64,000 nt of DNA. Source: Sacculina carcini. Lineage: Eukaryota; Arthropoda; Thecostraca; Sacculinidae. How positions within the stretch are numbered: position 1 is the first letter of the stretch; each line of letters opens with the position of its first letter. The position numbers and the translations under genes are program-made. Location of the stretch: positions 3,954,501 to 4,018,500 of the forward strand of contig OU696571.1 of NCBI GenBank assembly GCA_916048095.2, given 5' to 3'. This document shows, piece by piece, positions 5,548 through 58,620 of this stretch. Below the pieces are notes generated by a model. The model searched no databases. It had not been told where the DNA came from and worked only from the letters and a program-made list of their open reading frames with translations.

Positions 5548-6040
5548 CTAGCATTAAAACCCGCCCGTTGTGCGGAACAATACATTAAATGAAATTCATA
5601 TTTAATTAGTAAACATATTGCAAATAAAATAAAATTATAGTAAATCCATAGAAATCCTGATCAATTGAAAAGTCTAAATTTAATTATTTTTATTTTGACA
5701 AAATATTATCCCTCAACCCGCCTCATATTTACACCCACCCGTCTTACGGAATAATTCAGAACTCGAACACGATCCGTTCTGGACCTTAAAACCAAATCCG
5801 TTCGTTTTGTATATGAACTCGTTTTACACGGTAAAATTAAACGTTCTATTATCTATAGTTGCTGCCCCCGGGACATTTATATCTCATAAACATGATCCAT
5901 CTCTTACGTATTCTCTTACGATTACATCTCATAGTTTACGTTTGAAGCCCCTGATCTATACCATTGAGCCCGTGCAGTTAGGTCACCTCATATTCAAGCA
6001 TATACACACAGACAGACAGAGGATCTCTTTTATATTTATA
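5548..6040 (-). mobile_element. Non-autonomous Helitron, minus strand, about 0.49 kb
   Basis: Reading the minus strand, the element starts near 6040 with TATATAAATATAAAAG, AGATCC and TCTG repeats. It runs through the block shared with other short copies (GACCTTGAAGTCAA... and GAACTCGTTTTACACGG in reverse). It ends with CCGCACAACGGGCGGG, TTTTAATG and CTAG at 5551-5548. CTAG preceded by a small GC-rich stem is the usual Helitron 3' terminus. No coding capacity is present. Confidence 0.8.
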
Positions 6041-6048
6041 TATATATA

Positions 6049-11300: not shown

Positions 11301-12512
11301 TTGGTGGGCCGCGTGTTTGGGACCCCTGGGGTAGATAATCTCAGTCTTCTGATTACAAATTATGATCGCATCAGTATTTTTTGTGATCACAAACTAATAA
11401 GTTAAATCACCTCAGACTAGGCTGAGAGCGGTCAATATTGAATGGTTGGGTTGGGTTGGGTAGGTTTGACTCAGGTTATATTGGGTTTTAATGATAGCGG
11501 AAAATATATAAATTTTAACAATAAATATTATAGCGGTAAAAGTGAAATAGTATTTGAGCAAATGATATTGGGGAATGATGTTAAGTAATAAATATAGTTT
11601 GGAAACATTCTGATGAAAAGATTTCATCATCTTTCATTGTTTGTTTCGTGTTTGTGTTCTGAATTATACCACACGACGGGCAGATTTATATATCAGGAGG
11701 GTTGAGGAATAATATTTGTCAAAATAAGAACAAAAATATTCACATTTAGACTTTTCTATTGGTTAAGATATTTATAGGTTACATTTTTTGGTTTTCAATT
11801 TGTATTCATTATATTTTCTGGATTTGATATGAATTTTATTGTATGAATTGTTCCGCACGACGGGTGGGTTTAAAAAAGTGTTTTTAGATCATTTTTTCAA
11901 ATGTTTCATTTAAAAAAAGTTTTTTTTTTAAATAAAAATGTTCCGCGGGCAGCAACTATAGACAATAGAACGTTCAATTTCCCCTGTAGAATTAATCCAT
12001 ACACAAAACCAATGGATTTGACTTCAAATATGAATTGTATTGTATGAATTGTTCCGCACGACGGGCGGGTTTACAAAAAGTGTTTCCATTTTTTAGTTCA
12101 TTTTTTCAAATGGTTCATTTAAAAAAAGGTATTTAAAAAAAATAAAAATGCTCCGCGGGCAGCAACTATAGACCATAGAACGTTAAATTTACCCTGTAGA
12201 ATTAATCCATGCACAAAACCAATGGATTTGACTTCAAGATCCAGAACGGATCGTGTTCGAGTTCTGAATTATTCAGTTATTCGAGTTCTGAATTATTATT
12301 CAGCACGACGGGCGGGTTTAAAAATGACTCAGGCGGACTAAGGGGGAATATTTTGTCGAAATAAAAATAATTAAACTTATAATTTTCAATTGATTAATAT
12401 TTTTATGAGTGTACCCTATTTCATTTTTATTTTTCCATATTTTTTTATGAATTGAATATGAATTGAATATGAATTGTTATGAATTGCTCCGCACAACGGG
12501 CGGGTTTTAATG
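8373..12512 (+). mobile_element. Non-autonomous Helitron with internal tandem modules
   Basis: A second 5' end (TC at 8373) opens a long composite. The order is: the 5' region shared with the coding Helitron (8373-8860), then three to four internal units (about 8940-10170), then the 3'-type ACGGGCGGG modules (10315-12500). Internal units are marked by GTTACGGCGGTGTAAAGT at about 8942, 9336, 9676 and 10082, so they repeat every 340-406 bp. The part 10200-11930 is closely repeated at 15000-16440 and 21840-23300. The end at about 12500 reads TTTTAATGCTAT rather than CTAG, with the next element starting there. Confidence 0.7.
8940..10175 (+). repeat. Internal Helitron repeats, 340-406 bp period
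   Basis: Each unit holds the ordered landmarks GTGTAGATAATTTTGTGTTC, ATTTATACCCACAAATGATA, ATTACACTTGAACACCGGG, ATTTCTCAGTAACTATTTGT, GGTATAATTTTTAATTTTCC, GTTACGGCGGTGTAAAG and ACTTGCGATTACACAGG. The same order recurs in all large Helitron copies here (14.0-15.0, 18.0-18.7, 20.8-21.8 and 59.6-60.6 kb, and inverted at 29.75-29.99 kb). Units within one copy differ by small indels and substitutions. Confidence 0.85.
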
Positions 12513-12974
12513 CTATATATATACATAAAGAAGAAATTATATGTCTGTCTGTGTATGTATGCTTGAATATGAGGTGACATAATTGCGCTGGTTCATGGTT
12601 CGCTGGTTCAATGATCAGGGGCTTCAAACGCAAACGAATCGATGGCTCATTTTTATGAAATAAAAATGTCCCGCGGGCAGCAATAAAACGTTCAATTTCA
12701 CCGTATAGAATGAATTCATATACAAAACTAATGGATTTGACTTCAAGAACCAGAACGGATGGTGTTCGAGTTCTGAATTTTTCCTCACGTCGGGCGGGTT
12801 TAAATATGAGGCGGGTTGAGTGAAAATATTTTGTCAAAATAAAATTAAAAATAATGAAATTTAGACTTTTTAATTGATTAAGGTCTTCATGAGTTTGCCT
12901 TATTTATTTTTAGTTTGCAATATTTTTATGAATTGTTCCGCACAACGGGCGGGTTTTAATGCGGTTTTAATGCT
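12513..12974 (+). mobile_element. Short non-autonomous Helitron, about 0.46 kb
   Basis: It begins TATATATACATAAAGAAG, TGTCTGTCTGTGTATG, and runs through GAGGTGACATAATTGCGCTG, CCCGCGGGCAGCAATAAAAC and CAGAACGGATGGTGTTC. It ends CCGCACAACGGGCGGG with a duplicated GGTTTTAATG. The same order and length recur at 16485-16942, 23723-24173, 24174-24629 and 24630-28199, so this is a defined subfamily. It is non-coding. Confidence 0.8.
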
Positions 12975-13189
12975 ATATATATTCATAAAGAAGAAATTAT
13001 CTGTCTGTCTATGTATGTATGCTTGAATATGAGGTGACATAATTGCGCTGGTTCATGGTTCGCTGGTTCAATGATCAGGGGCTTCAAACGCAAACGAAGC
13101 GATGGCTCATTTTTATGAAATAAAAATGTCCCGCGGGCAGTTATTCATGTTATGAATTGCTCCGCACAACGGGCGGGTTTTAATGCTAG
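12975..13189 (+). mobile_element. Internally deleted short Helitron ending in CTAG
   Basis: The 5' end and first ~160 bp match the short subfamily up to CCCGCGGGCAG. The sequence then jumps to the last ~50 bp (TTATGAATTGCTCCGCACAACGG onward), ending in CTAG at 13186-13189. The next base begins the 5' TC of another Helitron (13190), so two elements sit end to end with no spacer. Confidence 0.82.
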
Positions 13190-13211
13190 TCTATATATAT
13201 AAAAGAGATCC

Positions 13212-13245
<34 letters not shown>

Positions 13246-16200
13246 CCACCCTCCTTGGTCACATTTTCAGCAAGCTGCTACTCGATAACCACTTAATGTA
13301 CCTGCCAACAATTTATACCATTACGCTGAAAATTTTCTTGTCTACACGATAGGATAAATTTAAAAGTTTAAAAATAAAATTAAAAAAAGTTATCGCGGTG
13401 AAAAGACAAAATGAACCCTGAAAAATGCGAAAATTTTGGTCAATATTCCTACATCTACTCCTCATAAACCAGAAATGGTACAGTAATACAGATTATACCA
13501 CTGTGTAGAAAATTTTCTGTTCTACAAGATAGGTTATAATTCATATCCAAAAATAGAACATAAAAGATGTAAACATGACAAAATTTCAATCTATATTCAA
13601 AATTATATTTAAACTCCACGCGTCCGATTTTCTATACTTTTTTCTCTATTTATCAAAAACTAATTATCACACATCTAATTAAATAATGCCATCATGCTGG
13701 GAATTTTGTTTGCTACAACACGGTATAATTTTTAATTTTCCAAAGTTTATTAAAAAAAAGTTACGGCGGTGTGAAGTGTAAATGACAAAGTCAAAAAGGC
13801 ATAATTATCGCACAAAAACGTGAATATTTTGGTCAATATTCCGCTATCTATTCCTCATAAACCAGCAATGGTACAGCTATAAAAATTATACTATTGTGTA
13901 GATAATTTTGTGTTCTACAGGAAAAGTAATAATTTATACCCACAAATGATACAAAAATGTGTAAAATTGGCAAAATTGTCAAATACATCCAAAATTACAC
14001 TTGATCACCGGGCGCCTAAATTAATTCATTTTTCTACCTATTTCTCAGGAACTATTTGTCACACATTAAAATAAATTATATCATCGTGCTGGAAATTGTA
14101 TTTTTTAAAATGCGGTATAATTTTTAATTTTCCAAAGTGTATCTGAAGGAAGTTACGGCGGTGTAAAGTCAAAAAGACATATTGCCAATTTGACAGCTAT
14201 TTTTCGCACTTGCGATTACACAGGAATATACTACTGTGTAGAGAATTTTGTGTTCTACAAGAAAAGGTGTAATTTATACCCACAAATGATACAAAAAACG
14301 TGTAAAATTGGCAAAATTCTCAAATACATCCAAAATTACACTTGAACACCGGGTGACTACAATTTATTCATTTTTATACCCATTTCTCAGCAACTGTTTG
14401 TCACACCTTAAAATTAATTATACCATCGTGCTAGAAATTTTGTTTCCTACAGTACGGTATAATTATTAATTTTCCAAAGTGTATCTGAACGAAGTTACGA
14501 CGGTGTAAGGTCAAATTGTCATGTTGCCAATTTGACAGCTATTATGCGTACTTGCGATTACACATGAATATACACTGATTAAATTTCACTGGAGTCCAAT
14601 CACAATTTACGCACTTGCGATTACACAGGAATATACTACTGTGTAGAGAATTTTGTGTTCTACAAGATAAGCTATAATTTATACCCACAAATGATACAAA
14701 AAACGTGTAAAATTGGCAAAATTCTCAAATACATCCAAAATTACACTTGAACACCGGGCGACTAAAATTAATTCATTTTTCTACTATTTCTCAGTAACTA
14801 TTTGTTACACATAAAAATAAATTATACCATCGTTCTAGAAATCTTGTCTTCTACAATACGGTATAATTTGTAATTTTCCAAAGGGTATCTGAAGGAAGTT
14901 ACGGCGGTGTAAAGTCAAAAGGACATATTGCCAATTTGACAGCTATTATGCGTACTTGCGATTACACAGGAATATACACCGATTAAATTTCACTGAAGCC
15001 CAATCACAATTAAGAATGCATCATATTATCTCCAAGCATGGATGGTGTGGTTTTATTGCGTACAGTTTAATTAATGCTACACTCTACTGAATATAAAGGC
15101 TTTATTGTCCTCAATAACGTTCCGCACGACGGGCGGGTAAAATGCTATTGGGAACAAAGTAAACTACTGAATTTAACTGTGTAATTTAATTGGTTTAATT
15201 TCAAGTTGCATAAGCATAAGTTGCATAAGGATATGGGCTGCAATATCATGTAATGCCAACTTATGCTGTTTTAGCGGAAGCATTAACCTGGAATTATAGA
15301 GATGACAGAAGATTGCATTGTTTTGATAGTGTTGTGGAAAAACATGTTTTCTAAATTGAAACATAAATTTCACATTTAGACTTTTATATTAGCTATAACT
15401 TTCCTGTGGGTTTGTTTTTCTTTTTCAATTTGCACTAATTTTTTTATGAATTGAATATTAATTATATTTTATGAACTGTTCCGCACGACGGGCGAATTAA
15501 ATGTATCTATAAAGAGTGGGTTTAAATGATAGCGAGGTATATGATATTTTGCTAGCAGTAAATATTCTAGCGATAAAAGTAGAATAGCTCTTAAGCAAAT
15601 GATTTTGGAGAATGATGTGAACCTTTAAATATATTTTGCGATCTGATGATATATGTATTAGGAATAATACGTAGCAGAATATAGATTGCATAATATAATA
15701 TCGGCTGTAATATCAAGGGCTGTATTATCGGTGTAATCCAAAAAATAACAACTGTATGAATATGATGCATTAGTGGAAGCATTAACCGGGAATTATGAGA
15801 TAATATGATAATGGTGTATAATTATATCGCATTATGCAACAAATGTGAATTTAGCTACCTTACAGTTTGGTCCCGATACTATATTGGCGGGTTGAGAGAA
15901 AAGTATTGGTGGGCCGCGTGTTTGGGACCCCTGGGGTAGATAATCTCAGTCTTCTGATTACAAATTATGATCGCATCAGTATATTTTGTGATCACAAACT
16001 AATTAGTTAAATCACCTCAGACTAGGCTGAGAGCGGTCAAGATTGGATGGTTGGGTTGGGTTGGGTAGGTTTGACTCAGGTTATATTGGGTTTTAATGAT
16101 AGCGGAAAATATGTAAATTTTAACAATAAATATTATAGCGGTAAAAGTGAAATAGTACTTAAGCAAATGATATTGGGGAATGATGTTAAGTAATAAATAT

Positions 16201-16484
16201 AGTTTGGAAACATTCTGATGAAAAGATTTCATCATCTTTCATTGTTTGTTTCGTGTTTGTGTTCTGAATTATACCACACGACGGGCAGATTTATATATCA
16301 GGCGGGTTGAGGGATAATATTTGTCAAAATAAGAACAAAAATATTCACATTTAGACTTTTCTATTGGTTAAGATATTTATAGGTTACATTTTTTGGTTTT
16401 CAATTTGTATTCATTATATTTTATGGATTTGATATGAATTTTATTGTATGAATTGCTCCGCACAACGGGCGGGTTTTAATGCTA
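13190..16484 (+). mobile_element. Large non-autonomous Helitron, copy A (3.3 kb)
   Basis: The 5' TC abuts the CTAG of the preceding element. The order is: 5' region shared with the coding Helitron, internal tandem units (about 13740-15000), the AAGAATGCATCATATTA block, GCACGACGGGCGGGTAAAATG, then 3' modules to TTTTAATGCT at about 16482. Most of its length is repeated almost identically at 20032-23290 with a constant offset near 6838 bp. Rep and helicase are missing, so it depends on proteins supplied by another copy. Confidence 0.8.
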
Positions 16485-16942
16485 TATATATACATAAAGA
16501 AGAAATTATCTGTCTGTCTGTGTATGTATGCTTGAATATGAGGTGACATAATTGCGCTGGTTCATGGTTCGCTGGTTCAATGATCAGGGGCTTGAAACGC
16601 AAACGAAGCGATGGCTCATTTCTATGAAATAAAAATGTCCCGCGGGCAGCAATAAAACGTTCAATTTCACCGTATAGAATGAATTCATATACAAAACTAA
16701 TGGATTTGACTTCAAGAACCAGAACGGATGGTGTTCGAGTTCTGAATTATTCCTCACGTCGGGCGGGTTTAAATATGAGGCGGGCTGAGTGAAAATATGT
16801 TGTCAAAATAAAATTAAAAATAATGAAATTTAGACTTTTTAATTAATTAAGGTCTTCATGAGTTTGCCTTATTTATTTTTAATTTGCAATATTTTTATGA
16901 ATTGTTCCGCACAACGGGCGGGTTTTAATGCGGTTTTAATGC
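16485..16942 (+). mobile_element. Short non-autonomous Helitron, about 0.46 kb
   Basis: Same subfamily and boundaries as 12513-12974, including the duplicated GGTTTTAATG just before the end. Its position directly after copy A matches the position of the other short element relative to the 8.4-12.5 kb composite, so composite and short element may have been copied together. Confidence 0.8.
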
Positions 16943-17328
16943 TATATATATACATAAAGAAGAAATTATCTGTCTGTCTGTGTATGTATGCTTGAATATG
17001 AGGTGACATAATTGCGCTGGTTCATGGTTCGCTGGTTCAATGACCAGGGGCTTCAGACGCAAACGAAGCAATGGCTCATTTTTATGAAATAAAAATGTCC
17101 CGCGGGCATTTAGACTTTTCTATTGGTCAAGATATTTATAGCTTACATTTTTTGCTTTTCAATTTGTATTCATTATATTTTATGGATTTGATATGAATTT
17201 TATTGTATGAATTGTTCCGCACGACGGGTGGGTTTAAAAAAAGTGTTTTTAGTTCATTTTTTCAAATGGTTCATGATTTGCTTGATTGTATGAATTGCTC
17301 CGCACAACGGGCGGGTATTAATGCCATA
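16943..17328 (+). mobile_element. Truncated short Helitron joined to a 3' module
   Basis: The first ~165 bp match the short subfamily up to CCCGCGGGCA. From about 17108 the sequence matches the 3' module seen at 7850-7990 (TTTAGACTTTTCTATTGGTC), ending near 17325 with CCGCACAACGGGCGGG. The join lies in the same CCCGCGGGCA segment where the 12975-13189 element is deleted. Confidence 0.7.
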
Positions 17329-19971
17329 TCTATATATATAAAAGAGATCCTCTGTGTGTGTGTGTGTGTGTGTGTGTGTTTGTCCAACCCTCCTTGGTCC
17401 ATTTTCTATCAGCTAATACTCGGCCACCACTTGGCGTACCTGCTAACAATATATACCATCACGTTGGAAATTTTCTTGTCTACACTTTAGATTAAATTTT
17501 AAATTTCAAAAATGAAATCAAAAAAAGTTATAGCGGTGAAAAGACAAAATGAACCCTGAAAAATGCGAAAATTGTGGTCAATGCTCTGCCATCTACTCCT
17601 CATAAACCAGAAATGGTACAGCCAAACAGATTATACCACTGTGTAGAAAATTTTCTGTTCTACAAGATAGGTTATAATTCATATCCAAAAATAGAACATA
17701 AAAGATGTAAACAGGACAAAATTTCAATCTATATTCAAAATTATATTTAAACTCCTCGCGTCCAATTTTCTATACTTTTTTTTCTATGTATCAAAAACTA
17801 ATTATCACACAACTAAATAAATAATACCATCATGCTGGGAATTTTGTTTGCTACAACACCGTATAATTTTTAATTTTCCAAAGTGTATTAAAAAAAAGTT
17901 ACGGCGGTGTGAAGTCAAAATGACAAAGTCAAAAATGCAAAATTAGCACTGGAAACCGTGAATGTTTTGGTAAATATTCCCCTATCTATTCCTCATAAAC
18001 CAGCATTGGTACAGCTATAAAAATTATACTATTGTGTAGATAATTTTGTGTTCTACAAGAAAAGTTATAATTTATACCCACAAATGATACAAAAATGTGT
18101 AAAATTGGCAAAATTGTCAAATACATCCAAAATTACACTTGATCACCGGGCGCCTAAATTAATTAATTTTTCTACCTATTTCTCAGGAACTATTTGTCAC
18201 ACATTAAAATAAATTATATCATCGTGCTGGAAATTGTATTTTTTAAAATGCGGTATAATTCTTAATTTTCCAAAGTGTATCTGAAGGAAGTGACGGCGGT
18301 GTAAAGTCAAAAGAACATATTGCCAATTTGACAGCTATTATGCGCACTTGCGATTACACAGGAATATACTACTGTGTAGAGAATTTTGTGTTCTACAAGA
18401 AAAGGTATAATTTATACCCACAAATGATACAAAAAACGTGTAAAATTGGCAAAATTCTTAAATACATCCAAATTTACACTTGAACACCGGGCGACTAAAA
18501 TTAATTCATTTTTTACGTATTTCTCAGTAACTATTTGTTACACATAAAAATAAATTATACCATCGTGCTAGAAATCTTGTTTTCTACAATACGGTATAAT
18601 TTGTAATTTTCCAAAGTGTATCTGAAGGAAGTTACGGCGGTGTAAATTCAAAAGCACATATTACCAATTTGACAGCTATTATGAGCACTTGCGATTACAC
18701 AGGAATATACACCGATTAAATTTCACTGAAGCCCAATCACAATTAAGAATGCATCATATTAGCTCCAAGCATGGATGGTGTGGTTTTATTGGGTACAGTT
18801 TAATTAATGCTACACTATACTGAATAGAAAGACTTTATTGTCCTCAATATTACTGGGAACAAAACTACAGTAGTAAATACTACTGGGAACAAAGTTAACT
18901 ACTGAATTTTACTGTATAATTTAATTGGCTTAATTTCAAGTTGCATAAGCTTAAGTTGCATAAGGATATGGGTTGTATTATCATACAATGCCAACTATAT
19001 GAATATGCTGTTTTAGCGGACGCATAAATCTGGAATTATAGAGATGACAGCAGGTTTCATAGTTTTGATAGTGTTACACTTCTGAATTACTACACACGAA
19101 GGACGGGTGTGAATTTGAGCAGTGTTGAGGGAAAAAACTTCGTCAATAATTAAAACAAGAATTTACAAATATGTATTTTTCTATTGGATCAGCTTTTTGC
19201 TTTTTGATTCATTATATTTTATTTATAGTCCCGCACGACGGGCGGGTTTAAATACGAGGCTGTTCGAGGGAAAATATTTTGTCACATCTAAAATAAAAAC
19301 ATTCATATTTAGACTTTTCTATTGTTTAAGAATTTTTAGGGGTTTACTTTTTCTTTTTTAATTTCTAATCGTTTTTTATTAATTAAATATTCATTATACT
19401 TTATTTATTGTTCTGCTCAACGGGCGGGTTTTAATGATAGATGGTGATGTTGAGTTATAAATATATTTTGAAAACAGTATGATAAAAAAATTAGTCATTT
19501 TTCATCGTTTTGTGTCTGAGTTCTGAATCATTCAGCACGACGGGCAGGTTTAAATATGAGGCGGTTTAGGCAAACTATTTTGTCAAAATAATATAAAAAT
19601 ATAGAAATTTAGACTTTTTATGGGTTTACTCTTTTCTTTATTAATTCATATTTATTTTCTCTTATAAATTGAATAAAAATTTAATGGTATAAATTGTTTC
19701 GCACGACGGGCCGGTTTATATGCTAGAATTTCCATTGTTTGTTGTGTTTTTGTTCTGAATTATTCCGCACGACGGGCAGGCTCAAATATGAGGCGGATTG
19801 AGGGATAATATTTTGTCAAATTTAAATTTAAAATATTGACATTTTGAGTTTTTTATTGGTGAACGTATATACAGGTTAAATTTTTTGCTTTTTTATTTGT
19901 ATTCAGTTTATTTTATGGATTGAATATGAATTTTACTTTATGAATTGTTCCGCACGACGGGCGGGCTCAAA

Positions 19972-20031
<60 letters not shown>
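17329..20031 (+). mobile_element. Large non-autonomous Helitron, third copy, plus (TA)n
   Basis: The 5' TC is at 17329, followed by AAAAGAGATCC and a pure TG run (about 17354-17380) in place of TCTG repeats. Internal units run from about 17870 to 18720, one unit fewer than in copies A and B. 3'-type modules follow at 19090, 19220, 19400, 19530, 19690, 19760 and 19945. The block ends in a (TA)n tract at 19976-20030, within which the next element starts. It is non-coding. Confidence 0.72.
19976..20030. repeat. (TA)n microsatellite between two Helitrons
   Basis: About 27 uninterrupted TA dinucleotides lie between the ACGGGCGGG module at 19957 and the Helitron 5' end at 20032. The Helitron 5' end is itself TATATATA-rich, so slippage of that terminus is a likely origin. 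Confidence 0.95.
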
Positions 20032-20034
<3 letters not shown>

Positions 20035-23000
20035 ATATATATAAAAGAGATCCTCTGTCTGTCTGTCTGTCTGTTTGTCTGTCCCACCCTCCTTGGTCAC
20101 ATTTTCAGCAAGCTGCTACTCGATAACCACTTAATGTACCTGCCAACAATTTATACCATTACGCTGAAAATTTTCTTGTCTACACGATAGGATAAATTTA
20201 AAAGTTTAAAAATAAAATCAAAAAAAGTTATCGCGGTGAAAAGACAAAATGAACCCTGAAAAATGCGAAAATTTTGGTCAATATTCCTACATCTACTCCT
20301 CATAAACCAGAAATGGTACAGTAATACAGATTATACCACTGTGTAGAGAATTTTCTGTTCTACAAGATAGGTTATAATTCATATCCAAAAATAGAACATA
20401 AAAGATGTAAACATGACAAAATTTCAATCTATATTCAAAATTATATTTAAACTCCACGCGTCCGATTTTCTATACTTTTTTCTCTATTTATCAAAAACTA
20501 ATTATCACACATCTAAATAAATAATGCCATCATGCTGGGAATTTTGTTTGCTACAACACGGTATAATTTTTAATTTTCCAAAATTTATTAAAAAAAAGTT
20601 ACGGCGGTGTGAAGTGTAAATGACAAAGTCAAAAAGGCATAATTATCGCACAAAAACGTGAATATTTTGGTCAATATTCCGCTATCTATTCCTCATAAAC
20701 CAGCAATGGTACAGCTATAAAAATTATACTATTGTGTAGATAATTTTGTGTTCTACAAGAAAAGTTATAATTTATACCCACAAATGATACAAAAATGTGT
20801 AAAATTGGCAAAATTGTCAAATACATCCAAAATTACACTTGATCACCGGGCGCCTAAATTAATTAATTTTTCTACCTATTTCTCAGGAACTATTTGTTAC
20901 ACATAAAAATAAATTATATCATCGTGCTGGAAATTGTATTTTTTAAAATGCGGTATAATTCTTAATTTTCCAAAGTGTATCTGAAGGAAGTGACGGCGGT
21001 GTAAAGTCAAAAGAACATATTGCCAATTTGACAGCTATTTTTCGCACTTGCGATTACACAAGAATATACTACTGTGTAGAGAATTTTGTGTTCTACAAGA
21101 AAAGGTATAAATTATACCCACAAATGATACAAAAAACGTGTAAAATTGGCAAAATTCTCAAATACATCCAAAATTACACTTGAACACCGGGTGACTACAA
21201 TTTATTCATTTTTATACCCATTTCTCAGCAACTGTTTGTCACACCTTAAAATTAATTATACCATCGTGCTAGAAATTTTGTTTCCTACAGTACGGTATAA
21301 TTATTAATTTTCCAAAGTGTATCTGAACGAAGTTACGACGGTGTAAGGTCAAAATGTCATGTTGCCAATTTGACAGCTATTATGCGTACTTGCGATTACA
21401 CATGAATATACACTGATTAAATTTCACTGGAGTCCAATCACAATTTACGCACTTGCGATTACACAGGAATATACTACTGTGTAGAGAATTTTGTGTTCTA
21501 CAAGATAAGCTATAATTTATACCCACAAATGATACAAAAAACGTGTAAAATTGGCAAAATTCTCAAATACATCCAAAATTACACTTGAACACCGGGCGAC
21601 TAAAATTAATTCATTTTTCTACTATTTCTCAGTAACTATTTGTTACACATAAAAATAAATTATACCATCGTTCTAGAAATCTTGTCTTCTACAATACGGT
21701 ATAATTTGTAATTTTCCAAAGGGTATCTGAAGGAAGTTACGGCGGTGTAAAGTCAAAAGGACATATTGCCAATTTGACAGCTATTATGCGTACTTGCGAT
21801 TACACAGGAATATACACCGATTAAATTTCACTGAAGCCCAATCACAATTAAGAATGCATCATATTATCTCCAAGCATGGATGGTGTGGTTTTATTGCGTA
21901 CAGTTTAATTAATGCTACACTCTACTGAATATAAAGGCTTTATTGTCCTCAATAACGTTCCGCACGACGGGCGGATAAAATGCTATTGGGAACAAAGTAA
22001 ACTACTGAATTTAACTGTGTAATTTAATTGGTTTAATTTCAAGTTGCATAAGCATAAGTTGCATAAGGATATGGGCTGCAATATCATGTAATGCCAACTT
22101 ATGCTGTTTTAGCGGAAGCATTAACCTGGAATTATAGAGATGACAGAAGATTGCATTGTTTTGATAGTGTTGTGGAAAAACATGTTTTCTAAATTGAAAC
22201 ATAAATTTCACATTTAGACTTTTATATTAGCTATAACTTTCCTGTGGGTTTGTTTTTCTTTTTCAATTTGCACTAATTTTTTTATGAATTGAATATTAAT
22301 TATATTTTATGAACTGTTCCGCACGACGGGCGAATTAAATGTATCTATAAAGAGTGGGTTTAAATGATAGCGAGGTATATGATATTTTGCTAGCAGTAAA
22401 TATTCTAGCGATAAAAGTAGAATAGCTCTTAAGCAAATGATTTTGGAGAATGATGTGAACCTTTAAATATATTTTGCGATCTGATGATATATGTATTAGG
22501 AATAATACGTAGCAGAATATAGATTGCATAATATAATATCGGCTGTAATATCAAGGGCTGTATTATCGGTGTAATCCAAAAAATAACAACTGTATGAATA
22601 TGATGCATTAGTGGAAGCATTAACCGGGAATTATGAGATAATATGATAATGGTGTATAATTATATCGCATTATGCAACAAATGTGAATTTAGCTACCTTA
22701 CAGTTTGGTCCCGATACTATATTGGCGGGTTGAGAGAAAAGTATTGGTGGGCCGCGTGTTTGGGACCCCTGGGGTAGATAATCTCAGTCTTCTGATTACA
22801 AATTATGATCGCATCAGTATATTTTGTGATCACAAACTAATAAGTTAAATCACCTCAGACTAGGCTGAGAGCGGTCAAGATTGAATGGTTGGGTTGGGTT
22901 GGGTAGGTTTGACTCAGGTTATATTGGGTTTTAATGATAGCGGAAAATATATAAATTTTAACAATAAATATTATAGCGGTAAAAGTGAAATAGTACTTAA

Positions 23001-23722
23001 GCAAATGATATTGGGGAATGATGTTAAGTAATAAATATAGTTTGGAAACAGTCTGATGAAAAGATTTCATCATCTTTCATTGTTTGTTTCGTGTTTGTGT
23101 TCTGAATTATACCACACGACGGGCAGATTTATATATCAGGCGGGTTGAGGGATAATATTTGTCAAAATAAGAACAAAAATATTCACATTTAGACTTTTCT
23201 ATTGGTTAAGATATTTATAGGTTACATTTTTTGCTTTTCAATTTGTATTCATTATATTTTATGGATTTGATATGAATTTTATTGTATGAATTGTTCCGCA
23301 CGACGGGTGGGTTTAAAAAAGTGTTTTTAGATCATTTTTTCAAATGGTTCATTTAAAAAAAGGTTTTTTTTTTTTAAATAAAAATGTTCCGCGGGCAGCA
23401 ACTATAGACAATAGAACGTTCAATTTACCCTGTAGAATTAATCCATACTTAAAACCAATGGATTTGACTTCAAGATGCAGAACGGATCGTGTTCGAGTTC
23501 TGAATTATTCAGCACGACGGGCGGGTTTAAAAATGACTCAGGCGGACTGAGGTGGAATATTTTGTCGATATAAAAATAATTAAACTTATAATTTTCAATT
23601 GATTAATATTTTTATGAGTGTACCCTATTTCATTTTTATTTTTCCATATTTTTTTATGAATTGAATATGAATTGAATATGAATTGTTATGAATTGCTCCG
23701 CACAACGGGCGGGTTTTAATGC
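20032..23722 (+). mobile_element. Large non-autonomous Helitron, copy B
   Basis: Nearly identical to copy A (13190-16440) over about 3.25 kb. The same short frames recur at a fixed 6838-bp offset and only scattered substitutions are visible. Beyond about 23290 it carries an extra 3' part (GTGTTTTTAG, AACTATAGACAATAG, CAGAACGGATCG, GACGGGCGGG) before ending near 23722. The similarity points to a recent duplication, either by transposition or as a segment. Confidence 0.8.
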
Positions 23723-24173
23723 TATATATATACATAAAGAAGAAATTATCTGTCTGTCTGTGTATGTATGCTTGAATATGAGGTGACATAATTGCGCTGG
23801 TTCATGGTTCGCTGGCTCAATGATCAGGGGCTTCAAACGCAAACGAAGCGATGGCTCATTTTTATGAAATAAAAATGGCCCGCGGGCAGCAATAAAACGT
23901 TCAATTTCACCGTATAGAATGAATTCATATACAAAACTAATGGATTTGACTTCAAGAACCAGAACGGATGGTGTTCGAGTTCTGAATTTTTCCTCACGTC
24001 GGGCGGGTTTAAATATGAGGCGGGTTGAGTGAAAATATTTTTTAAAAATAAAATTAACAATAATGAAATTTATACCTTTTAATTGATTAAGGTTTTCATG
24101 AGTTTGCCTTATTTATTTTTAATTTGCAATATTTTATGAATTGTTCCGCACAACGGGCGGGTTTTAATGCTAG
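23723..24173 (+). mobile_element. Short Helitron 1 of a head-to-tail triplet
   Basis: It opens TATATATACATAAAGAAG and ends GTTTTAATG-CTAG at 24170-24173. The next element starts at the following base. Its internal sequence follows the short subfamily (CCCGCGGGCAGCAATAAAAC, CAGAACGGATGGTGTTC, CGTCGGGCGGGTTTAAAT). It is non-coding. Confidence 0.85.
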
Positions 24174-24629
24174 TATATATATAAATATAAAAGAAATTAT
24201 CTGTCTGTCTGTGTGCGTGTATGCTTGAATATGAGGTGACCTAACTGCGCGGGCTCAATGGTATAGATGAGGGCCTTGAAACGTAAACGAAGCGATGGAT
24301 CATGTTTATGAGATAATATTGTCCCGGGGGCATCAACTGAAGACAATAGAACGTGTAATTTCACCGTGTAAAACGAGTTCATATACAAAACTAACGGATT
24401 TGACTTCAAGGTCCAGAACGGATCGTGTTTGAGTTCTGAATTATTCCGCACGTCGGGCGGGTTTAAATATGAGGCGGGCTGAGGGAAAATATTTTGTCCA
24501 AATAAAATAAAAAATAATGAAATTTAGACTTTTCGATTGATTTAGGTTTTTATGAGTTTGCCATATAAATTTTTTAATTTGCAATATTTTTATGAATTTT
24601 TCCGCACAACGGGCGTGTTTTAATGCTAG
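24174..24629 (+). mobile_element. Short Helitron 2 of a head-to-tail triplet
   Basis: It starts directly after the CTAG at 24173 with TATATATATAAATATAAAAG and TCTGTCTG, and ends in CTAG at 24626-24629. It is a diverged relative of copies 1 and 3: GATAGAGCCC-type differences, GGGGGCATCAACTGAAGACA in place of CGGGCAGCAATAAAAC. This shows the triplet is not a simple recent tandem duplication. Confidence 0.83.
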
Positions 24630-24879
24630 TATATACATAAAGAAGAAATTATCTGTCTGTCTGTGTATGTATGCTTGAATATGAGGTGACATAATTGCGC
24701 TGGTTCATGGTTCGCTGGTTCAATGATCAGGGGCTTCAAACGCAAACGAAGCGATGGCTCATTTTTATGAAATAAAAATGTCCCGCGGGCAGCAATAAAA
24801 CGTTCAATTTCACCGTGTAGAATGAATTCATATACAAAACTAATGGATTTGACTTCAAGAACCAGAACGGATGGTGTTC

Positions 24880-27490
24880 TCGAAAATCTTCTCGAAAATC
24901 TTGCGGTGGTGGTGTTGGTGCTGTTTATCACTGTTCTTTATCTTTATCACTTTTATCTACTCTACAATTTCCTTGTAGTTCCTTTGAATACGCTGCATTC
25001 TCGCTTTCTTTTCCTTCACACCCTAAATTAGGTATTCTATTGTTATATCGACACGATCACACTGGCACATCCTCAGTATTTCTATCTGAATTTGATACAC
25101 TCCTATCTTTCTTCTCAGATACATTCTCCCATAATTTCATTGTTCTAGGCGATTTTAATTTCTGGATTGACTCACCATCTCATGCGCATGTTTCTGATTT
25201 TCTAACTCTGCTCAATTCTTGGGATCTTTCCGTTATGAACCGCGGTGCTACTCACCTATCCGGTCATACCCTCGACCTTGTGATCTGTACGCACTCCTCC
25301 AGACTGTCTCTCCTCGATACATTCACTTACCCCCCTGATTCTCTCATATCTGATCATAGCCTCATCACATTTGGTGTTTCTCTTCCTTCACCTTCTAAGC
25401 CTTCTTCCGCTTCACTGATGCTTCGTGATTACAAAAAATTTGATCCTTTATTATTTTGTCGTTTGGTTACCTCTCTTCTGAATCCCTCAAACTATTTGTT
25501 CCTCCCACCACTCATCCTCCCCAAGTTTATATCCGACTCTCTCTCCCTCATCAATGATCAGATCTTCCCTTTGCGCTTACATCACTTTCGCTCAAGTTCT
25601 CCTCCTCCTCCCTGGTGGTCGTCCGATCTATCCCGCTTGCGTTCAGAATGCAGAGCCCGTGAGCGTTCTTGGCGGCGCTTTCGTTCGTCTTCATCTTGGT
25701 TCTCTTTCTGTAGTGCCCGCAAATCTTTTTTCTCTGTGGTTGCTTTGTCAAAATCTAATTTCTATCGCTCACAATTACGCCAACTCCAATCATCTCGCTC
25801 ACGATGGATAACTCTGAAATCTATTTCTGGTCGCTCTTCTAAGTCATCTTGCTCAATATCTGCCAGTGAATTCGCCTCATTTTTCTCTTGTAAAATTGCA
25901 TCCTTGCAATCCAAATTACCCACTAGCACTTTTCCTCTCCAATTTCCTCCTTGCCTTAGCACTGTTTCCTCTTTTTCCTCGATTGCTCCGTCTACCACAG
26001 CACGTTTTCTTACCAAACTTCAGAGGTCTAAATGTCCCACTGACCCCATACAATTTTCTGCTCTCTCTGATGCTATTATACTCCTTACTCCACTTTTCAC
26101 ATATATGGTTAACTCTTCTTTCCTTCACGGTTCATTCTTAGCTTCCAAACATGCCACTATACTGCCGATTCTCAAAAAATCCAATCTTGATCCCTCTCTT
26201 CCATGCAACTATCGTCCAATTTCTATTCTATCTCTGTCCTCCAAGCTTCTAGAATCTGCCATCCTTGTTCAATTACGGCCTATCATCTTGCCTGTTCTCG
26301 ATCCTTGCCAATCTGGTTTTGTATCTCAGCACTCTACCGAAACACTTCTTCTCTGCCTCTCCAATGATCTATTCTCTAATTTTTCATTTGGAAATTCCGT
26401 CCTCCTGATTTCCTTAGATTTTTCTGCTGCCTTCGATCTAGTCGACCACGAAATCCTATGCTGCGATCTTGCTCATCTAGGCCTCACATCTACTGCACTT
26501 TCTCTTCTTACCTCATATCTAAATGATCGTTCCTATGCTGTTCGCAGTAATGCGGCTTTATCGTGCGACTTTCCTCTCACCTCTGGGGTTCCACAAGGCT
26601 CACTTCTTGGTCCTTTACTTTTCAACTTATACGTATCATCCCTTTGTCCTATTCTCCGCAGCTATCCAGTTTCATTTCACGTATACGCTGACGACATCCA
26701 AATTTATTTTCCTCTTTCTCCTCATTCTTCAAATTTGGTCTCTATACTGCTCACCCAGATTTCTTCTTGGGCTGCTTCACGTAAACTTGTTCTCAACCCT
26801 GACAAAACAGAATATCTAGTCTTTCACCCTCCTCGAATTTCTCCTCACTCTATCAACCTTCCGCTAGCCAATCAAATGCGCAATTTGGGTGTCTTGTTCG
26901 ATCCCAACCTTTCTTTCTCGACTCATTTTTCTCAGCTTATCCGCTCGTGCCGCTTTTTACTCCGACAATTTTACCCTATCCGTTCGTCGATTGATGTCTC
27001 ATCCGCTAGTCTTCTGGTAAACTCCTACATCTTTTCTAAGATCGACTATTGCAACTCGCTCTTCTTCCATCTTCCCTTGAAATCTATCCGCCAACTCCAA
27101 GCAGTGATCAACCTTGCTTGTCGGTTTGTACTGAGGCTTCCTCCGCGAACCCCTACTTCGGTGCATATCCGACAGCTCGGTTGGTTACCTGCTCTTTCTC
27201 GTATCCGCTATAAGGTATGTTGTCTGGTCTTCAAACTTATCCACTCCCCCTCTTCTCCTTCATATCTCCGTTCCCTATTGACTCTCAATAATCGCACTTC
27301 TTGTCGCATTCCTGTGCCATTAGTCTGTCCTCCTGCTCTTAATCAATCTTCTTGGTCATCCAAATCCTTTTATTTCTCTGCTCCTCGTATCTATAACTCA
27401 CTTCCATCTTACATTCACCACAAGTCTTCATTCCGATCCTTTTCTGCTGATCTTCATAAATATCTGCTCACTCGTTCTCTTGATGACTAA
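24880..27490 (+). CDS. LINE ORF2 fragment: C-terminal endonuclease plus reverse transcriptase
   Basis: The frame is open from the 5' junction to TGA/TAA-side stop at 27490, about 870 codons; no true start is present because the element is truncated. Numbering from 25040, the APE-type endonuclease end shows GDFN (about 37-40), HTLDLVICT and SDH (about 103-105). The RT follows with NYRPISILS, LDFSAAFDLVDHE (about 458), GVPQGSLLGPLLF and YADD (about 549). Last comes the C-terminal region with IDYCNSL, RQLGWLPA and APRIYNSLPS. It nicks target DNA and copies LINE RNA at the cut. No stop or frameshift interrupts it, unlike every other retroelement here, which implies a recent insertion. L2 is the best clade guess from motif style. 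Confidence 0.9.
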
Positions 27491-27969
27491 ATGTATGATT
27501 TGTCTCTGTTTATGATTTGTCTCTGCGTGTTGTTTGTGCTGATCGTCCTATGTTGTACACTCGTTGTTCTTGCTTGATATTTGTCTTTTTACTCACTGTG
27601 AATTATCTGTTTTCGTTGCTGCGTCCCGTTTTTGCATCTCTTGTATTCGTCGTTGTCTGGTCAGGCTTCGCCCTGCTACTGGTAACCGTGTAATTCCAGT
27701 ACAACCAGATTCATGGTCGAGTCGTCGGCGACTAAACCGGCTCCCCCACTGTTCTGCAGTGAGGAGGGTGGCTAGACACCCGACAGGAAAAAAACAAAAC
27801 CTGTTTCAAGGGCGGATGAGCTATCTGATAGCCAACGGCCATCTAGCATGTTCCAGTTTGCAAACGTGTTTTCATTTTTCTATTTGTGCCTACTCCCTGC
27901 TCGCTGTGATGTTCCTGTCGGTTGTCTTTTTCGCGCCTGTGTATAAATATGTGCGCTATATTAAATATA

Positions 27970-28000
<31 letters not shown>
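24880..28000 (+). mobile_element. L2/CR1-like LINE, 5' truncated, (TTG)n tail
   Basis: The element interrupts a Helitron between GATGGTGTTC and CGAGTTCTGAA. It contains an open reading frame with endonuclease and reverse transcriptase, a ~480-bp 3' UTR and a (TTG)n tail at about 27970-27999. A tail of short tandem repeats instead of poly-A is typical of L2/CR1-like LINEs. A short GTTC occurs at both junctions, so any target duplication is 4 bp or less. The 5' junction carries a 12-bp tandem duplication (CTCGAAAATCTT twice). Confidence 0.88.
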
Positions 28001-28199
28001 CGAGTTCTGAATTATTCCGCACGTCGGGCGGGTTTAAATATGAGGCGGGCTGAGTGAGAATATTTTGTCAAAATAAAATTAAAAATAATGAAATTTAGAC
28101 TTTTTAATTGATTAAAGTTTTTATGAGTTTGCCTTATTTGTTTTTAATTTGCAATATTTTTATGAATTGCTCCGCACAACGGGCGGGTTTTAATGCTAG

Positions 28200-28262
28200 T
28201 ATATATATATATATTTCGCATAAAGAAGTTGCACTCACGCACCCGGTTATGTTATATGATGA
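28200..28262. other. Flank of a large inverted repeat, with short (TA)n
   Basis: A TATATATATATAT stretch is followed by about 45 bp of single-copy sequence (TTCGCATAAAGAAGTTGC...). It links the CTAG of the upstream Helitron to the inverted repeat. Nothing coding is present. Confidence 0.6.
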
Positions 28263-28488
28263 AAAAAGTATACTTCATCGGGCACAATTATTTATGTATT
28301 AGTACGACGTTTCGCCTCAACAAGGCTTTATCAAGTACTGTTTTATAAAATACATCAAAAAAGACGAGCCAAGAACACAACATATTTAGTAGATATAAGT
28401 GAATATATTCAGTACTTGATAAAGCCTTGTTGAGGCGAAACGTCGTACTAATACATAAATAATTGTGCCCGATGAAGTATATTTTTTT

Positions 28489-28495
<7 letters not shown>
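28263..28495. repeat. Inverted repeat (about 80-bp arms) carrying a hammerhead-like motif
   Basis: The left arm (about 28257-28340) and right arm (about 28410-28495) are almost perfect reverse complements, separated by a ~70-bp spacer. On the plus strand the right arm reads AGTAC, TTGATAA, a GCCT/AGGC stem, GAAA, CGTC, GTACT. This is the order of a type I hammerhead ribozyme: helix I AGTAC/GTACT, stem II, GAAA, then GTC before helix I closes. It departs from the CUGAUGA consensus (C3 to U, G8 to A, one extra A). Hammerheads with a short helix III are known from Penelope-like elements. The link is an inference. Confidence 0.6.

Positions 28496-28542
<47 letters not shown>
28492..28542. repeat. 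(TA)n microsatellite
   Basis: An uninterrupted TA run of about 24 dinucleotides separates the inverted repeat from the CCCGCCCGTCGTGCGG end of a minus-strand Helitron module. Confidence 0.93.
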
Positions 28543-28545
<3 letters not shown>

Positions 28546-30020
28546 CGCCCGTCGTGCGGAACAATTCATAAAGTAAAATTCATATTCAATCCATAAAAGA
28601 GAATGAAGAAAAATTGAAAAGCAAAAAATTAACCTGTAAATATGTTTACCAATAGAAAAGTCTAAATGTTGACATTTTCATTTTAATTTTGACAAAAAAG
28701 TATTCCTCAACCCGTCTCATATTTAAACCTACACTTCGTGCGGAAATATTCAGAACACGTAACAAACAATGAAAATTCCAGCAAATGAACCCGCCTGTCG
28801 CGCGGAACAATTCATACTTTGAAATTTGTGTATAATTCATAAGAGAAAAGGAATATGAATTAAAAAAGTAAGCCCATAACAAGTATAAATTTCTATATTT
28901 ATATATTTATTTTTGCAAAATAGTTGTGCTAAGCCGCCTCATATTTAAACTTGCCCGTTGTGCTGAATACACAATGAAAAATGACTAAACGTTTTCATCA
29001 TAATATTTCCAAATATATATTCAGAAATTAACATCATCTACCATTGAAACCCTCCCGTTTCGCGGAAAAATTAATCAAGTAAAATATATATTGGATTCAA
29101 AAAATAAAACGAATACAAATTAAAGAGAAAACTAGTAAATCAATAAAAAGTCTAAATATAAATGTGTTTATTTTAGATGTGGCAAAATATTTTCCCTCGA
29201 ACAGCCTCGTATTTAAGCCCGCCCGTCGTGCGTAACTATTAATATAATATAATGAATCATAAAGCAAAAAGCTTATCCAATATAAAAATCAAAATTGGTA
29301 AATTCTAGTTTTAATTATTGACAAAGTTTTTTTCCTCAACACTGCTCAAATTCACACCAGTCCTTCGTGTGTAGTAATTCAGAAGTGTAACACTATCAAA
29401 ACAATGCAACTTTCTGTCATCTCTATAGTTCTAGATTAATGCTTCCGCTAAAGCAGCATATGCATATAGTTGACATTGCATGATACTGCAACTCATATGC
29501 TTATGCAACTTGAAATTAAACCAATTAAATTACACAGTAAAATTCAGTAGTTTACTTTTTTCCCAGTAGCATTTTACCCGCCCATCGTGCGGAACAATTC
29601 ATGTGTAAATATTGAGGACAATAAAGCCTTTCTATTCAGTATAGTGTAGCATTAATTAAACTGTACGCATTAAAACCATACCATCCATGCATGGAGCTAA
29701 TATGATGCATTCTTAATTGTGATTGGGCTTCAGTGAAATTTAATCGGTGTATATACCTGTGTAATCGCAAGTGCGCATAATAGCTGTCAGATTGATTATA
29801 TGTGCTTTTGACTTTACACCGCCGTAACTTCCTTCAGATACACTTTGGAAAATTACAAGTTATACCGTATTGTAGAAAACAAGATTTCTAGCACGATGGT
29901 ATAATTTATTTTTATGTGTAGCAAATAGTTACTGGAAAATAGTAGAAAAATGAATTTATTTTAGTAGCCCGGTGTTCAAGTGTAATTTTGGATGTATTGG
30001 ATGTAATTTTGGACCTTCTT
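28543..30020 (-). mobile_element. Minus-strand Helitron modules (mirror of 59.6-63.6 kb)
   Basis: Read on the minus strand this holds the same order as the plus-strand block at 59.6-63.6 kb. First come internal units (ACTTGCGATTACACAGG, GTTACGGCGGTGTAAAG), then AAGAATGCATCATATTAGCT and the CACGATGGGCGGGTAAAATG block at about 29573. Successive 3' modules follow, ending at 28545 with CCGCACGACGGGCGGG. It is non-coding. Confidence 0.75.
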
Positions 30021-30448
30021 GCATCCATTTTACCCCTAGGGACCAAGTTTCATCAAAATCAGTCCAGTGGATCACTGGACTGATTTTGATTGGGTAAACA
30101 GAAGGAGATTGAGTAAACAGCACAAATGACCTCAATGACCTTGAAAATGACCTCGGAGGTCATCAAAACCTAGCCTATGACCTTCTTGCATCCATTTTAC
30201 CGCTAGGGACCAAGTTTCATCAAAATCTGTCCAGTGGCTTAGGAGGAGATATGGTAAACAGACACAAATGATCTCAATGACCTTGAAAATGACCTCGGAG
30301 GTCAACAAAACCCAGCCTATGACCTTCTTGCATCCATTTTACCCCTAAGCACCAAGTTTAATTAAAATCGGTCCAATGGTTTAGGAGGAGATAGGATACA
30401 AACAGACATCTAGAAAATTTGCAATCAGTGCAGGGCAAAAAAATCATC
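30003..30448 (-). repeat. Tandem repeat of the CTGGACCGATTTTGATGAAA type, about 120-bp units
   Basis: Three to four units each contain (minus strand) CTCCTAAACCATTGGACCG, GATTTTGATGAAACTTGG, AAAATGGATGCAAGAAGGTC, a GACCTCCGAGGTC palindrome and AAGGTCATTGAGGTCATTTG. The same array occurs in the opposite orientation at 58640-59110. Sequences of this kind are common in animal Helitrons. The GACCTCCGAGGTCA repeats give each unit its own small stem. Confidence 0.85.
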
Positions 30449-30471
30449 AATTCGGACCTTCGGGCCGAATT
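30449..30471. repeat. 23-bp hairpin with a TTCG loop
   Basis: AATTCGG-A-CC, TTCG, GG-C-CGAATT forms a stem closed by TTCG with a single internal A/C mismatch. The inverted counterpart is at 58598-58620 next to the same repeat array. A stem this stable fits the subterminal hairpin of a Helitron-like element or a transcription pause site. The flanking GAAAATGCTGCAGTCGTTTC is also shared by both copies. Confidence 0.75.
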
Positions 30472-30529
30472 GGAAAATGCTGCAGTCGTTTCTGTTTGTC
30501 GTTTCTCGCAAACAGCGCGTGTTGCTCAA

Positions 30530-35250: not shown

Positions 35251-35880
35251 TGAAAACACAATACTTTTTGTTGTTGCGTTATAGAATCTCTCAAGTGCCA
35301 AGTCTGTTTATTATAATATGATTCTTCTTCTGGATATTCTTATTTATATTATTATTGTTAGTATATCAAGCAGAAATTTGGATTAAACTATGGTCTTGCA
35401 GCAAACGCAAATACGGTAGGAACAATACGGTTCGGTAAGTTATCACAATATTCACAACGTTCATATACGTAACAATATTCATATACGTTTATTATGTTAA
35501 CGTATAAGCGTAAAACAAACTTTCAACGTAAATAAACGTAAATTTTACAACCACGTGCGAGTGTAAATGCATCGTAAGGATATACAAACACAATTCGGAG
35601 GGTTGTGGGTTAACATGGGCAATACTTGTGTTATGTTTTACCTCGTGTCATCATTTCTATGAGGCCGCTTAGGAGAGGATCTGGCAAGACTCTATGGATG
35701 AGTCAAACAATGTCTTGTATACAATCGAAGGTTCTGTGGATGTTTTGTTTGAGACGAATGTGCTATCCAGAGTAGGCGCAGCAGTCAGCGGTGAAAGAGA
35801 CGCAGGACAACCAAACGTTGAGCCGATTCCAGTGGTTACCGAGATAGAGTGGAGCGTAGATGCAGAGGTGAGTAGTATTG
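35251..35880. other. Unannotated interval before a minisatellite
   Basis: AT-rich sequence to about 35640 includes repeated AACGTA words at 35455-35545. A frame from 35694 runs into the minisatellite and would encode about 60 non-repetitive residues (acidic, no recognised domain). I see no supported gene. Confidence 0.45.
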
Positions 35881-35882
35881 TG

Positions 35883-36548
35883 TGTGTACCTCTCTGTATG
35901 GTGTGTTTGTGCGAGCACCTCTCTGTGTGGGTGTGTTTGTGCGTGTACCTCTCTGTGTGGGTGTGTTTGTGCGAGTACCTCTCTGTGGGTGTGTTTGTGC
36001 GAGTACCTCTCTGTGTGGGTGTGTTTGTGCGTGTACCTCTCTGTGTGGGTGTGTTTGTGCGAGTACCTCTCTGTGTGGGTGTGTTTGTGCGAGTACCTCT
36101 CTGTGTGGGTGTGTTTGTGCGTGTACCTCTCTGTGTGGGTGTGTTTGTGCGTTTACCTCTGTGTGGGTGTCTTTTTGCGTGTGTGTACCTCTGTGTGGGT
36201 GTCTTTGTGTGTGTACCTCTCTGTGTGGGTGTGTTTGTGCGTTTACCTCTGTGTGGGTGTCTTTTTGCGTGTGTGTACCTCTGTGTGGGTGTCTTTGTGT
36301 GTGTACCTCTCTGTGTGGGTGTGTTTGTGCGTTTACCTCTGTGTGGGTGTCTTTTTGCGTGTGTGTACCTCTGTGTGGGTGTCTTTGTGTGTGTACCTCT
36401 CTGTGTGGGTGTCTTTGTGTGTGTACCTCTCTGTGTGGGTGTGTTTGTGCGTTTACCTCTGTGTGGTTGTCTTTTTGCGTGTGTGTACCTCTGTGTGGGT
36501 GTCTTTTTGCGTGTGAATGTACCTCTCTGTGTGGGTGTCTTTGTGTGT
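35883..36548. repeat. 30-bp GT-rich minisatellite with a 90-bp higher-order repeat
   Basis: The basic unit (GTACCTCTCTGTGTGGGTGT, GTTTGTGCGT) repeats about 22 times in 0.66 kb. From 36151 a higher-order period appears: GTTTACCTCT recurs at 36151, 36241 and 36331 (90 bp), then 36451. No unit has a stop in three plus and two minus frames, so five frames of 212-310 codons stay open (VCLCVYLSVW-type and THTQRHPHRE-type). These are repeat artefacts. Confidence 0.95.
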
Positions 36549-58502: not shown

Positions 58503-58620
58503 AGTTTCAAACGTGTATTCAAACTAAATGTTTGCCGAAAATCACCGGCCAACACTACTGTGAGAAACGACAAACAGAAACGACTGCAGCATTTTCAAAT
58601 TCGGCCCGAAGGTCCGAATT
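58503..58620. repeat. Right junction of the palindrome and 23-bp hairpin
   Basis: A small duplication, TTTCAAACGTGTATTCAAACTAA, lies directly outside the right arm. Then comes GAGAAACGACAAACAGAAACG, shared in inverted form with 30500. The 23-bp hairpin at 58598-58620 is the inverse of the one at 30449-30471. Confidence 0.8.

Follow-up and report, generated by a model that had tools for sequence, protein, structure and literature searches.

Nested insertion as a probable origin of stacked Helitron 3' tails in the genome of Sacculina carcini

Helraiser of bats is a canonical Helitron, with a CTAG end, an AT target in A+T-rich surroundings, and Rep and helicase domains (PMC4778049). Read-through of its 3' end has been observed experimentally and gives new 3' ends; one assay put it at about 11.7% of events (PMC4778049). 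Adjacent Helitrons of maize lie head to tail, the CTAG of one being followed by the next element; dissimilar neighbors among them point to separate insertions, and tandem Helitrons of bats are also cited in that work (PMC2267711). For Fusarium oxysporum, composite or multi-terminus Helitrons have been described together with self-insertion, nested elements, and duplicated termini, and the same paper cites tandem Helitron arrays in plant centromeres (PMC5148889). Within the portions of these papers drawn on here, published findings include circular intermediates and read-through, elements joined head to tail or arrayed in tandem, and self-insertion that leaves more than one 5' terminus (PMC2267711, PMC5876387, PMC5148889, PMC4778049).

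Earlier readings of head-to-tail Helitron junctions invoked rolling-circle multimers or end-to-end insertion. Nesting in an internal linker would be a third cause with a similar signature, i.e., a CTAG followed by the next start, and it can be distinguished by pairing opening with closing ends.

Structure of the array and its Helitron family

The window, which is the whole stretch of 64,000 nucleotides analyzed (C2:3954501–4018500), comes from a genome of 264 Mb in 43 contigs. It contains three units that had been read from the sequence as three fused Helitrons. These units and the features associated with them are as follows (a slash marks a junction; elements E2 to E4 are listed in the next section).

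23301–23722, forward strand: U0, a module within E4, with the inherited internal junction CTA/TATATA that lacks the G
23723–24173, forward strand: U1 (element 1 of the sequence-only reading), last module of E4
24174–24629, forward strand: U2 (element 2), probably the displaced 3' tail of E3
24630–28199, forward strand: U3 (element 3), interrupted by a LINE and probably the displaced 3' tail of E2
24880–28001, forward strand: non-LTR retrotransposon (LINE) inside U3, with an open reading frame at 25040–27490 that has an RVT_1 domain, and a (TTG)n 3' tail

CTAG is found at 24170–24173, 24626–24629, and 28196–28199, with TATATA directly 3' each time, which confirms the spacer-free joining and the CTAG endings claimed earlier. 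On the left, U0 adjoins U1 at ATGCTA/TATATA, without the G. When the LINE is excluded from U3, the identities are 87.1% for U1–U2, 88.4% for U2–U3, and 96.2% for U1–U3, and U2, the middle unit, diverges most, as had been stated. The limits given for the third unit also hold, but it is a unit of about 450 bp that was later interrupted and enlarged by the LINE. The LINE has a possible 5-bp flanking duplication (TGTTC), which overlaps its tail. The left half of U3 is 98.8% identical to U1 and the right half 93.3%; because of this unequal similarity, U3 may be a recombinant.

The family has the ends of canonical Helitrons, namely a 5' TC, a 3' CTAG, and insertion between A and T (A^T) without target duplication. 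Its coding capacity is represented in the window by one copy:

53186–63611, forward strand: autonomous-type copy whose broken frames encode Rep and PIF1 helicase domains, with a similar 5' start and the same CTAG end

The Rep domain (PF14214; 53412–54746) scored 31.4 bits against a cut-off of 28.9 and covers only profile positions 149–189 of 191, and the PIF1 domain (55025–55744) scored 181.6 bits. This copy has the HUH Rep and the PIF1-type helicase expected of a canonical Helitron, although its frames are broken. Among 30 Rep-domain loci in the genome (L031–L060), four have the ends of this family (L051, L052, L053, and L060). Helitron2/Helentron elements insert between two T residues (T^T), and the A^T ends contradict such an identity here.

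Genome-wide, the exact TC start occurs 2070 times, preceded by A in 1642 cases, by GCTAG in 398, and by other bases in 30. The exact CTAG end occurs 2550 times and is followed by T in 2424 cases and by another base in 126, in agreement with the earlier claim of Helitrons inserted between A and T. With T as the next base, the exact 28-base 3' end has 2424 copies across the 264 Mb of the genome, against 0 for its reversed reading, so its abundance is not due to chance. Blind A^T insertion would be expected to give about 0.2 CTAG/TC junctions, a value scaled from the AT content of the window with the preference for A+T-rich DNA left out, versus 398 observed; the family therefore joins itself far above the level of blind insertion. 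With a shorter start motif, 324 starts were found 2–8 bases after TTAATGC[CT]A, one of them being E3 in the window, and among 100 such places listed CTAG was kept in 15 (scored by eye). As for the hairpin that canonical Helitrons carry just ahead of the 3' end, folding was weak, with a stem of about four pairs in three of four ends, three pairs in U2, and z-scores of −1.07 to +0.18. The units are not satellite DNA, being dispersed mobile-element tails with non-repeat flanks at many loci.

Probably nested elements upstream of the array

A genome search with U2 yielded 30 fetched loci, the window included, and CTAG followed by T is found in 29 of these, the U2 copy in L017 reading CTAT. The same longer sequence lies upstream of the U2 copies (about 94–98% identity to L008; 15 of the other 29 loci listed). 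Six of the loci were read further upstream: five have the start A/TCTATATATATAAAAGAGATCC with a non-linker flank, one of these with a single change, and the start was absent from the upstream stretch read at the sixth. Five X-U2 elements read end to end have A/TC starts and non-linker flanks on both sides. Given this shared upstream sequence and start, U2 makes up the final 456 bp of a roughly 3-kb element, X-(TA)n-U2. The element at L028 adjoins a Helitron repeat and offers no cleanly readable empty site. Upstream of the array in the window, the following elements were delimited.

6049–8372, forward strand: E0, the 5' part of a Helitron; its closing tail was not found
8373–13189, forward strand: E1, a Helitron with a CTAG/TC join to E2, 96.6% identical to the aligned part of E2
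13190–17328, with probable tail 24630–28199, forward strand: E2, the outermost of the three putatively nested Helitrons, whose TC start and start motif directly follow the CTAG of E1
17329–20031, with probable tail 24174–24629, forward strand: E3, the middle Helitron, with an X-type body that ends in the X tail GGGCTCAAATC and a (TA)n tract
20032–24173, forward strand: E4, the complete innermost Helitron, with an A/TC start, a CTAG end, and U1 as its last module

The bodies of E2 and E4 are 99.2% identical over 3286 sites. The start of E4 (20032) directly follows the X tail and (TA)n tract of E3, and the start of E3 (17329) directly follows an E2 half-linker ending in ...GGGTATTAATGCCATA, the bases preceding the E3 start being ...TTAATGCCATA. 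The stretches before E4 and E3 are the left halves of two linkers, and the starts of U2 and U3 form the corresponding right halves.

Removal of the putative guests restored, at both joins, host sequence that exists uninterrupted elsewhere. With E4 removed, the last 600 bp of E3 plus U2 aligned from position 1 to 1056 in 24 alignments with 92.6–98.2% identity; because of overlap within three pairs of fetched loci, these represent 21 separate places. With E3 and E4 removed, the last 600 bp of E2 plus U3 crossed the join unbroken into L073 (98.8% identity, two gaps), and this restored join is also spanned by L100 (98.8%) and L090 (97.1%). The restored linker, CCATATATATACATAAAG, is also present in L077, L085, L093, and L100, among others. 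The tail of E4 together with U1 occurs uninterrupted outside the window with up to 96.9% identity.

As a control, the tails were swapped. The E3 tail scored 1842 bits with U2, 1545 with U3, and 1507 with the outer tail, whereas the E2 tail scored 1189 bits with U3, 1157 with U2, and 1136 with the outer tail. The margin for E2 is narrow because the relatives are similar to U3 over only its first 80 bp or so. No extra base is left at the E2 join. The linker of E3 is a (TA)n tract, and for this reason the exact insertion point of E4 within the tract cannot be fixed.

Taken together, these alignments make it very probable that U1, U2, and U3 are 3' tails belonging to three nested Helitrons, with E4 in E3 and E3 in E2. 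The units would then not be three Helitrons, as had been proposed, but tails of longer elements with their bodies upstream, stacked by nesting. Elements of this family have three parts, namely a body, a linker rich in TA, and a terminal module of about 450 bp with the CTAG end. The E2 linker would have been the target of E3, and the E3 linker later that of E4; both insertions would have occurred between A and T and without target duplication. Each insertion would have pushed the last module of the host downstream, where it now begins right after the CTAG of the guest. From left to right, the order would be the E2 body, the E3 body, the whole of E4 (ending in U1), U2 as the E3 tail, and U3 as the E2 tail. 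We infer that the family's own Rep-helicase moved these elements by rolling-circle transposition, and the linker may attract insertions owing to its A+T richness. Nesting would also account for the divergence of the middle unit, since U2 is of the E3 tail type, while the E2 and E4 bodies are 99.2% alike and U1 and U3 are 96.2% alike.

A second example of an element inside the X/U2 linker comes from L012, where the element starts behind an X tail with (TA)n and its third U1 module is followed by U2. At the left end of the window array, the closing tail of E0 was looked for and not found, and the picture of paired brackets is thus incomplete for the array as a whole. Separately, the CTAG/TC join of E1 and E2 is at background identity (96.6%).

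The array is flanked by parts of another Helitron and by a fold-back element.

5548–6047, reverse strand: 3' tail of an older outer Helitron; joined to 28499–29500 (reverse strand), it aligns from 3 to 1502 with X-U2 loci
28499–30510, reverse strand: body part of the same outer Helitron, identified by this join; its stretch 28526–30510 resembles the autonomous-type copy
28253–28340 and 28410–28497: arms of a fold-back element between U3 and the outer body

Counting those from the window, 51 alignment rows span the join of outer tail and body; identity is about 78–80% in the rows displayed in full. Because the reverse-strand tail and body align across their join, the array from 6049 to about 28498 sits in the linker of this older Helitron.

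Other routes to adjacent 3' ends

The array may alternatively have been inherited, with U1/U2/U3 forming an invariant multi-module end that moved together with the rest of one long element. Multi-module tails are indeed passed on in this family, e.g., U0/U1/U1 in the C4 units, but the order U1/U2/U3 was not seen among the other fetched loci. The form of the junctions differs as well. Exact terminators with CTA and a base other than G number 1515 genome-wide. Among the listed places, 41 of 100 of these terminators were typed, along with 97 of 100 CTAG/T ends, 50 of 100 exact TC starts, and 100 of 100 U1-type starts (C1 up to about 7.04 Mb). A U1-type start follows 27 of the 41 G-less terminators and an E start follows three, versus two and 11 of the 97 CTAG/T ends (eight of the 11 without spacer). 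Inherited internal junctions thus mostly lack the G of CTAG, and both junctions here retain it. The sequence-only reading had named as a test whether the junctions are merely internal features of one element. This applies only to 23722/23723, an inherited internal junction given that 2055 of the 2936 U1-type starts in the genome carry ATGCTA 1–10 bases upstream; it fails for both CTAG junctions inside the array, which have the rare form. Among 100 listed ATGCTA/U1 junctions, 89 are identical (ATGCTATATATATACATAAAG) and four have the CTAG form (by eye). Inheritance of the three tails as one block is therefore very improbable. The loss of the G from internal terminators would fit composites whose spread began after one of their internal ends had ceased to function.

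One tentative extension, which we regard as possible but rather doubtful, is that the linker before the last 3' module acts as a landing pad that accepts further copies, leading to serial nesting and stacked terminators. Inner copies that read through to the outer CTAG would exit as longer-tailed composites, with the internal CTAG changing to CTAT, and nesting plus read-through would then be the engine of modular 3' ends.

Serial end-to-end insertion would make the units three short, independent Helitrons of about 450 bp, each inserted at the end of its predecessor. The spacer-free CTAG/TATATA junctions agree with this explanation, as does the resemblance of the unit starts to the family 5' end (positions 1–54 of U2 are about 80–83% identical to several E starts). 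However, no solo U1-type unit beside unrelated DNA was found among the first 100 U1-type starts on C1, and all 100 are preceded by Helitron sequence, contrary to the free 5' ends implied by three separate Helitrons. In this sample, 70 starts have ATGCTA upstream; of the other 30, a variant terminator precedes 19 and a relic precedes one, and 10 are second copies of a start repeat of about 86 bp, so that 89 in all stand after a terminator. In the fetched loci, 54 of 58 U-type starts (two counted twice) have a terminator motif within 150 bp, two of the other four have long TA tracts after X sequence, and two lie head to head with an E start; no solo unit was seen there either. The half-linkers preceding E3 and E4 would also have to be coincidence, and we consider serial insertion of short elements very improbable. 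Self-targeting, one of the two causes first suggested, is retained in the form of nesting.

The other suggested cause, a rolling-circle multimer with units made and inserted as one concatemer, is the least probable at this locus, where neighbors are 12–13% different while U1 and U3 are 96.2% alike. The neighbor was the closest relative in 0 of 19 adjacent module pairs, four of which (U2/U2) come from places on C30 that may be copies of one larger duplication and are little informative. Neighbors in ten U1/U1 pairs are 95.1–97.8% alike, and their best matches elsewhere are 97.3–100%. This count also excludes local tandem duplication of modules, in line with the earlier view that the array is not a single tandem duplication. 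Finally, an origin of U1/U2 by deletion between the 5' start of a downstream neighbor and an internal U start predicts TC after CTAG, and TA is found.

Rolling-circle multimers are likely elsewhere in this genome, judging from the identity of tandem units. The C4 array has five elements joined CTAG/TC. Its units 1–3 of 4.5 kb have three to six differences over about 4544 sites (99.9% identity), unit 4 is 99.1–99.2% identical to them, and unit 5 is 94.6–94.8% identical. In the C2 array, units 1 and 2 are 99.85% identical. Near-identical complete units joined CTAG/TC were thus seen at C4 units 1–3 and C2 units 1–2 and are absent from the window array. C2_0 and C2_1 are 96.22% identical with N positions excluded, and C2_3, which runs into other sequence, was compared over 4600 bases.

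Divergence between neighbors had been proposed as the means of telling concatemers from insertions. Among 12 CTAG/TC neighbor pairs in four arrays (the window plus C4, C2, and C1, which were chosen for their junctions and are not a random sample), three are at least 99.85% identical, one is at 99.16%, and eight are at 65–97%. The 99.16% level is also found between loci, namely between C1_2 and the C4 units.

Comparison with described Helitrons

With hundreds of self-junctions and 99.9% identical tandem units in one genome, the different routes to adjacent ends could be counted side by side. Nesting offers a possible route by which Helitrons may acquire additional terminators as well as new 3' ends. 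Helitrons joined head to tail, and composite ones, have already been published; the new part is repeated self-nesting in an internal TA linker that leads to stacked terminators. None of the literature titles searched dealt with 3' tails stacked in this way; subscription journals were mostly outside the scope of the search, and novelty is unproven.

As far as the published accounts drawn on here extend, the family shares with Helraiser the CTAG end, the AT target in an A+T-rich setting, the Rep and helicase domains, and putatively the read-through that creates new 3' ends. In contrast to Helraiser, it has 3' tails that were most probably stacked when copies nested within internal TA linkers. 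The array resembles the maize Helitrons in that CTAG is followed at once by the next element and in that dissimilar neighbors indicate separate insertions. However, the CTAG/TC junctions of maize join whole elements, whereas CTAG is followed here by the displaced tail of the host. As in Fusarium oxysporum, self-insertion has most probably resulted in nested elements and duplicated termini, but the fungal elements are Helitron2-like and have repeated 5' termini, whereas the elements in Sacculina carcini have A^T ends and stacked 3' tails. In the tandem arrays of plant centromeres, Helitrons follow one another head to tail, as they do in the C4 and C2 arrays, whereas the window locus is most probably nested and not a concatemer.

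Helitron arrays on other contigs

Three of five Helitrons arrayed on contig C4 of the Sacculina carcini assembly are about 99.9% identical across 4.54 kb. The terminator GCGGTTTTAATGCTATA precedes the whole array, which is a candidate recent rolling-circle concatemer.

C4:3264400-3288800 (fetched loci L061-L063), minus strand, five Helitrons with CTAG/TC joins

Among the matches listed by a genome-wide motif search, Helitron starts repeat evenly after dead terminators (TTAATGCTATA followed by TC).

C6:7693482-7704607, starts spaced 3699 bp
C8:5522242-5533346, about 3692 bp
C4:3856169-3864856, about 4330 bp

Pure nesting within older copies would require a separate closing tail for every evenly spaced start in these regions. 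Alternatively, these starts may be explained by tandem amplification.

Repeats and duplications within the window

The 3' tail module U3 (24630-28199), which is split by a LINE, differs between its halves in identity to module U1 (23723-24173), with 98.8% left of the LINE (24630-24879) and 93.3% right of it (28004-28199). Given these unequal values, the U3 sequence looks as if it were recombinant. Other repeats include a minisatellite whose sequence is open in several reading frames, a helicase 3' part doubled as inverted, overlapping copies inside the autonomous-type Helitron, and tandem repeats common to bodies of the Helitron family.

35878-36545, minisatellite, 30-bp unit, about 22 copies
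56757-57461 (+) and 57244-57948 (-), helicase 3' part
9069-10194, 13887-15011, 18025-18710, 20725-21849, and 59834-60639, 342/404-bp tandem repeats inside the bodies

TA tracts behind Helitron ends

The region 28215-28497 shares a fold-back-like sequence (TTTCGCATAAAGAAGTTGCACTC...) with the 3' flank of the C4 array's last unit (L061). Since CTAG and a (TA)n tract precede this sequence in each case, elements other than Helitrons also seem to have inserted in such tracts after the end of a Helitron.
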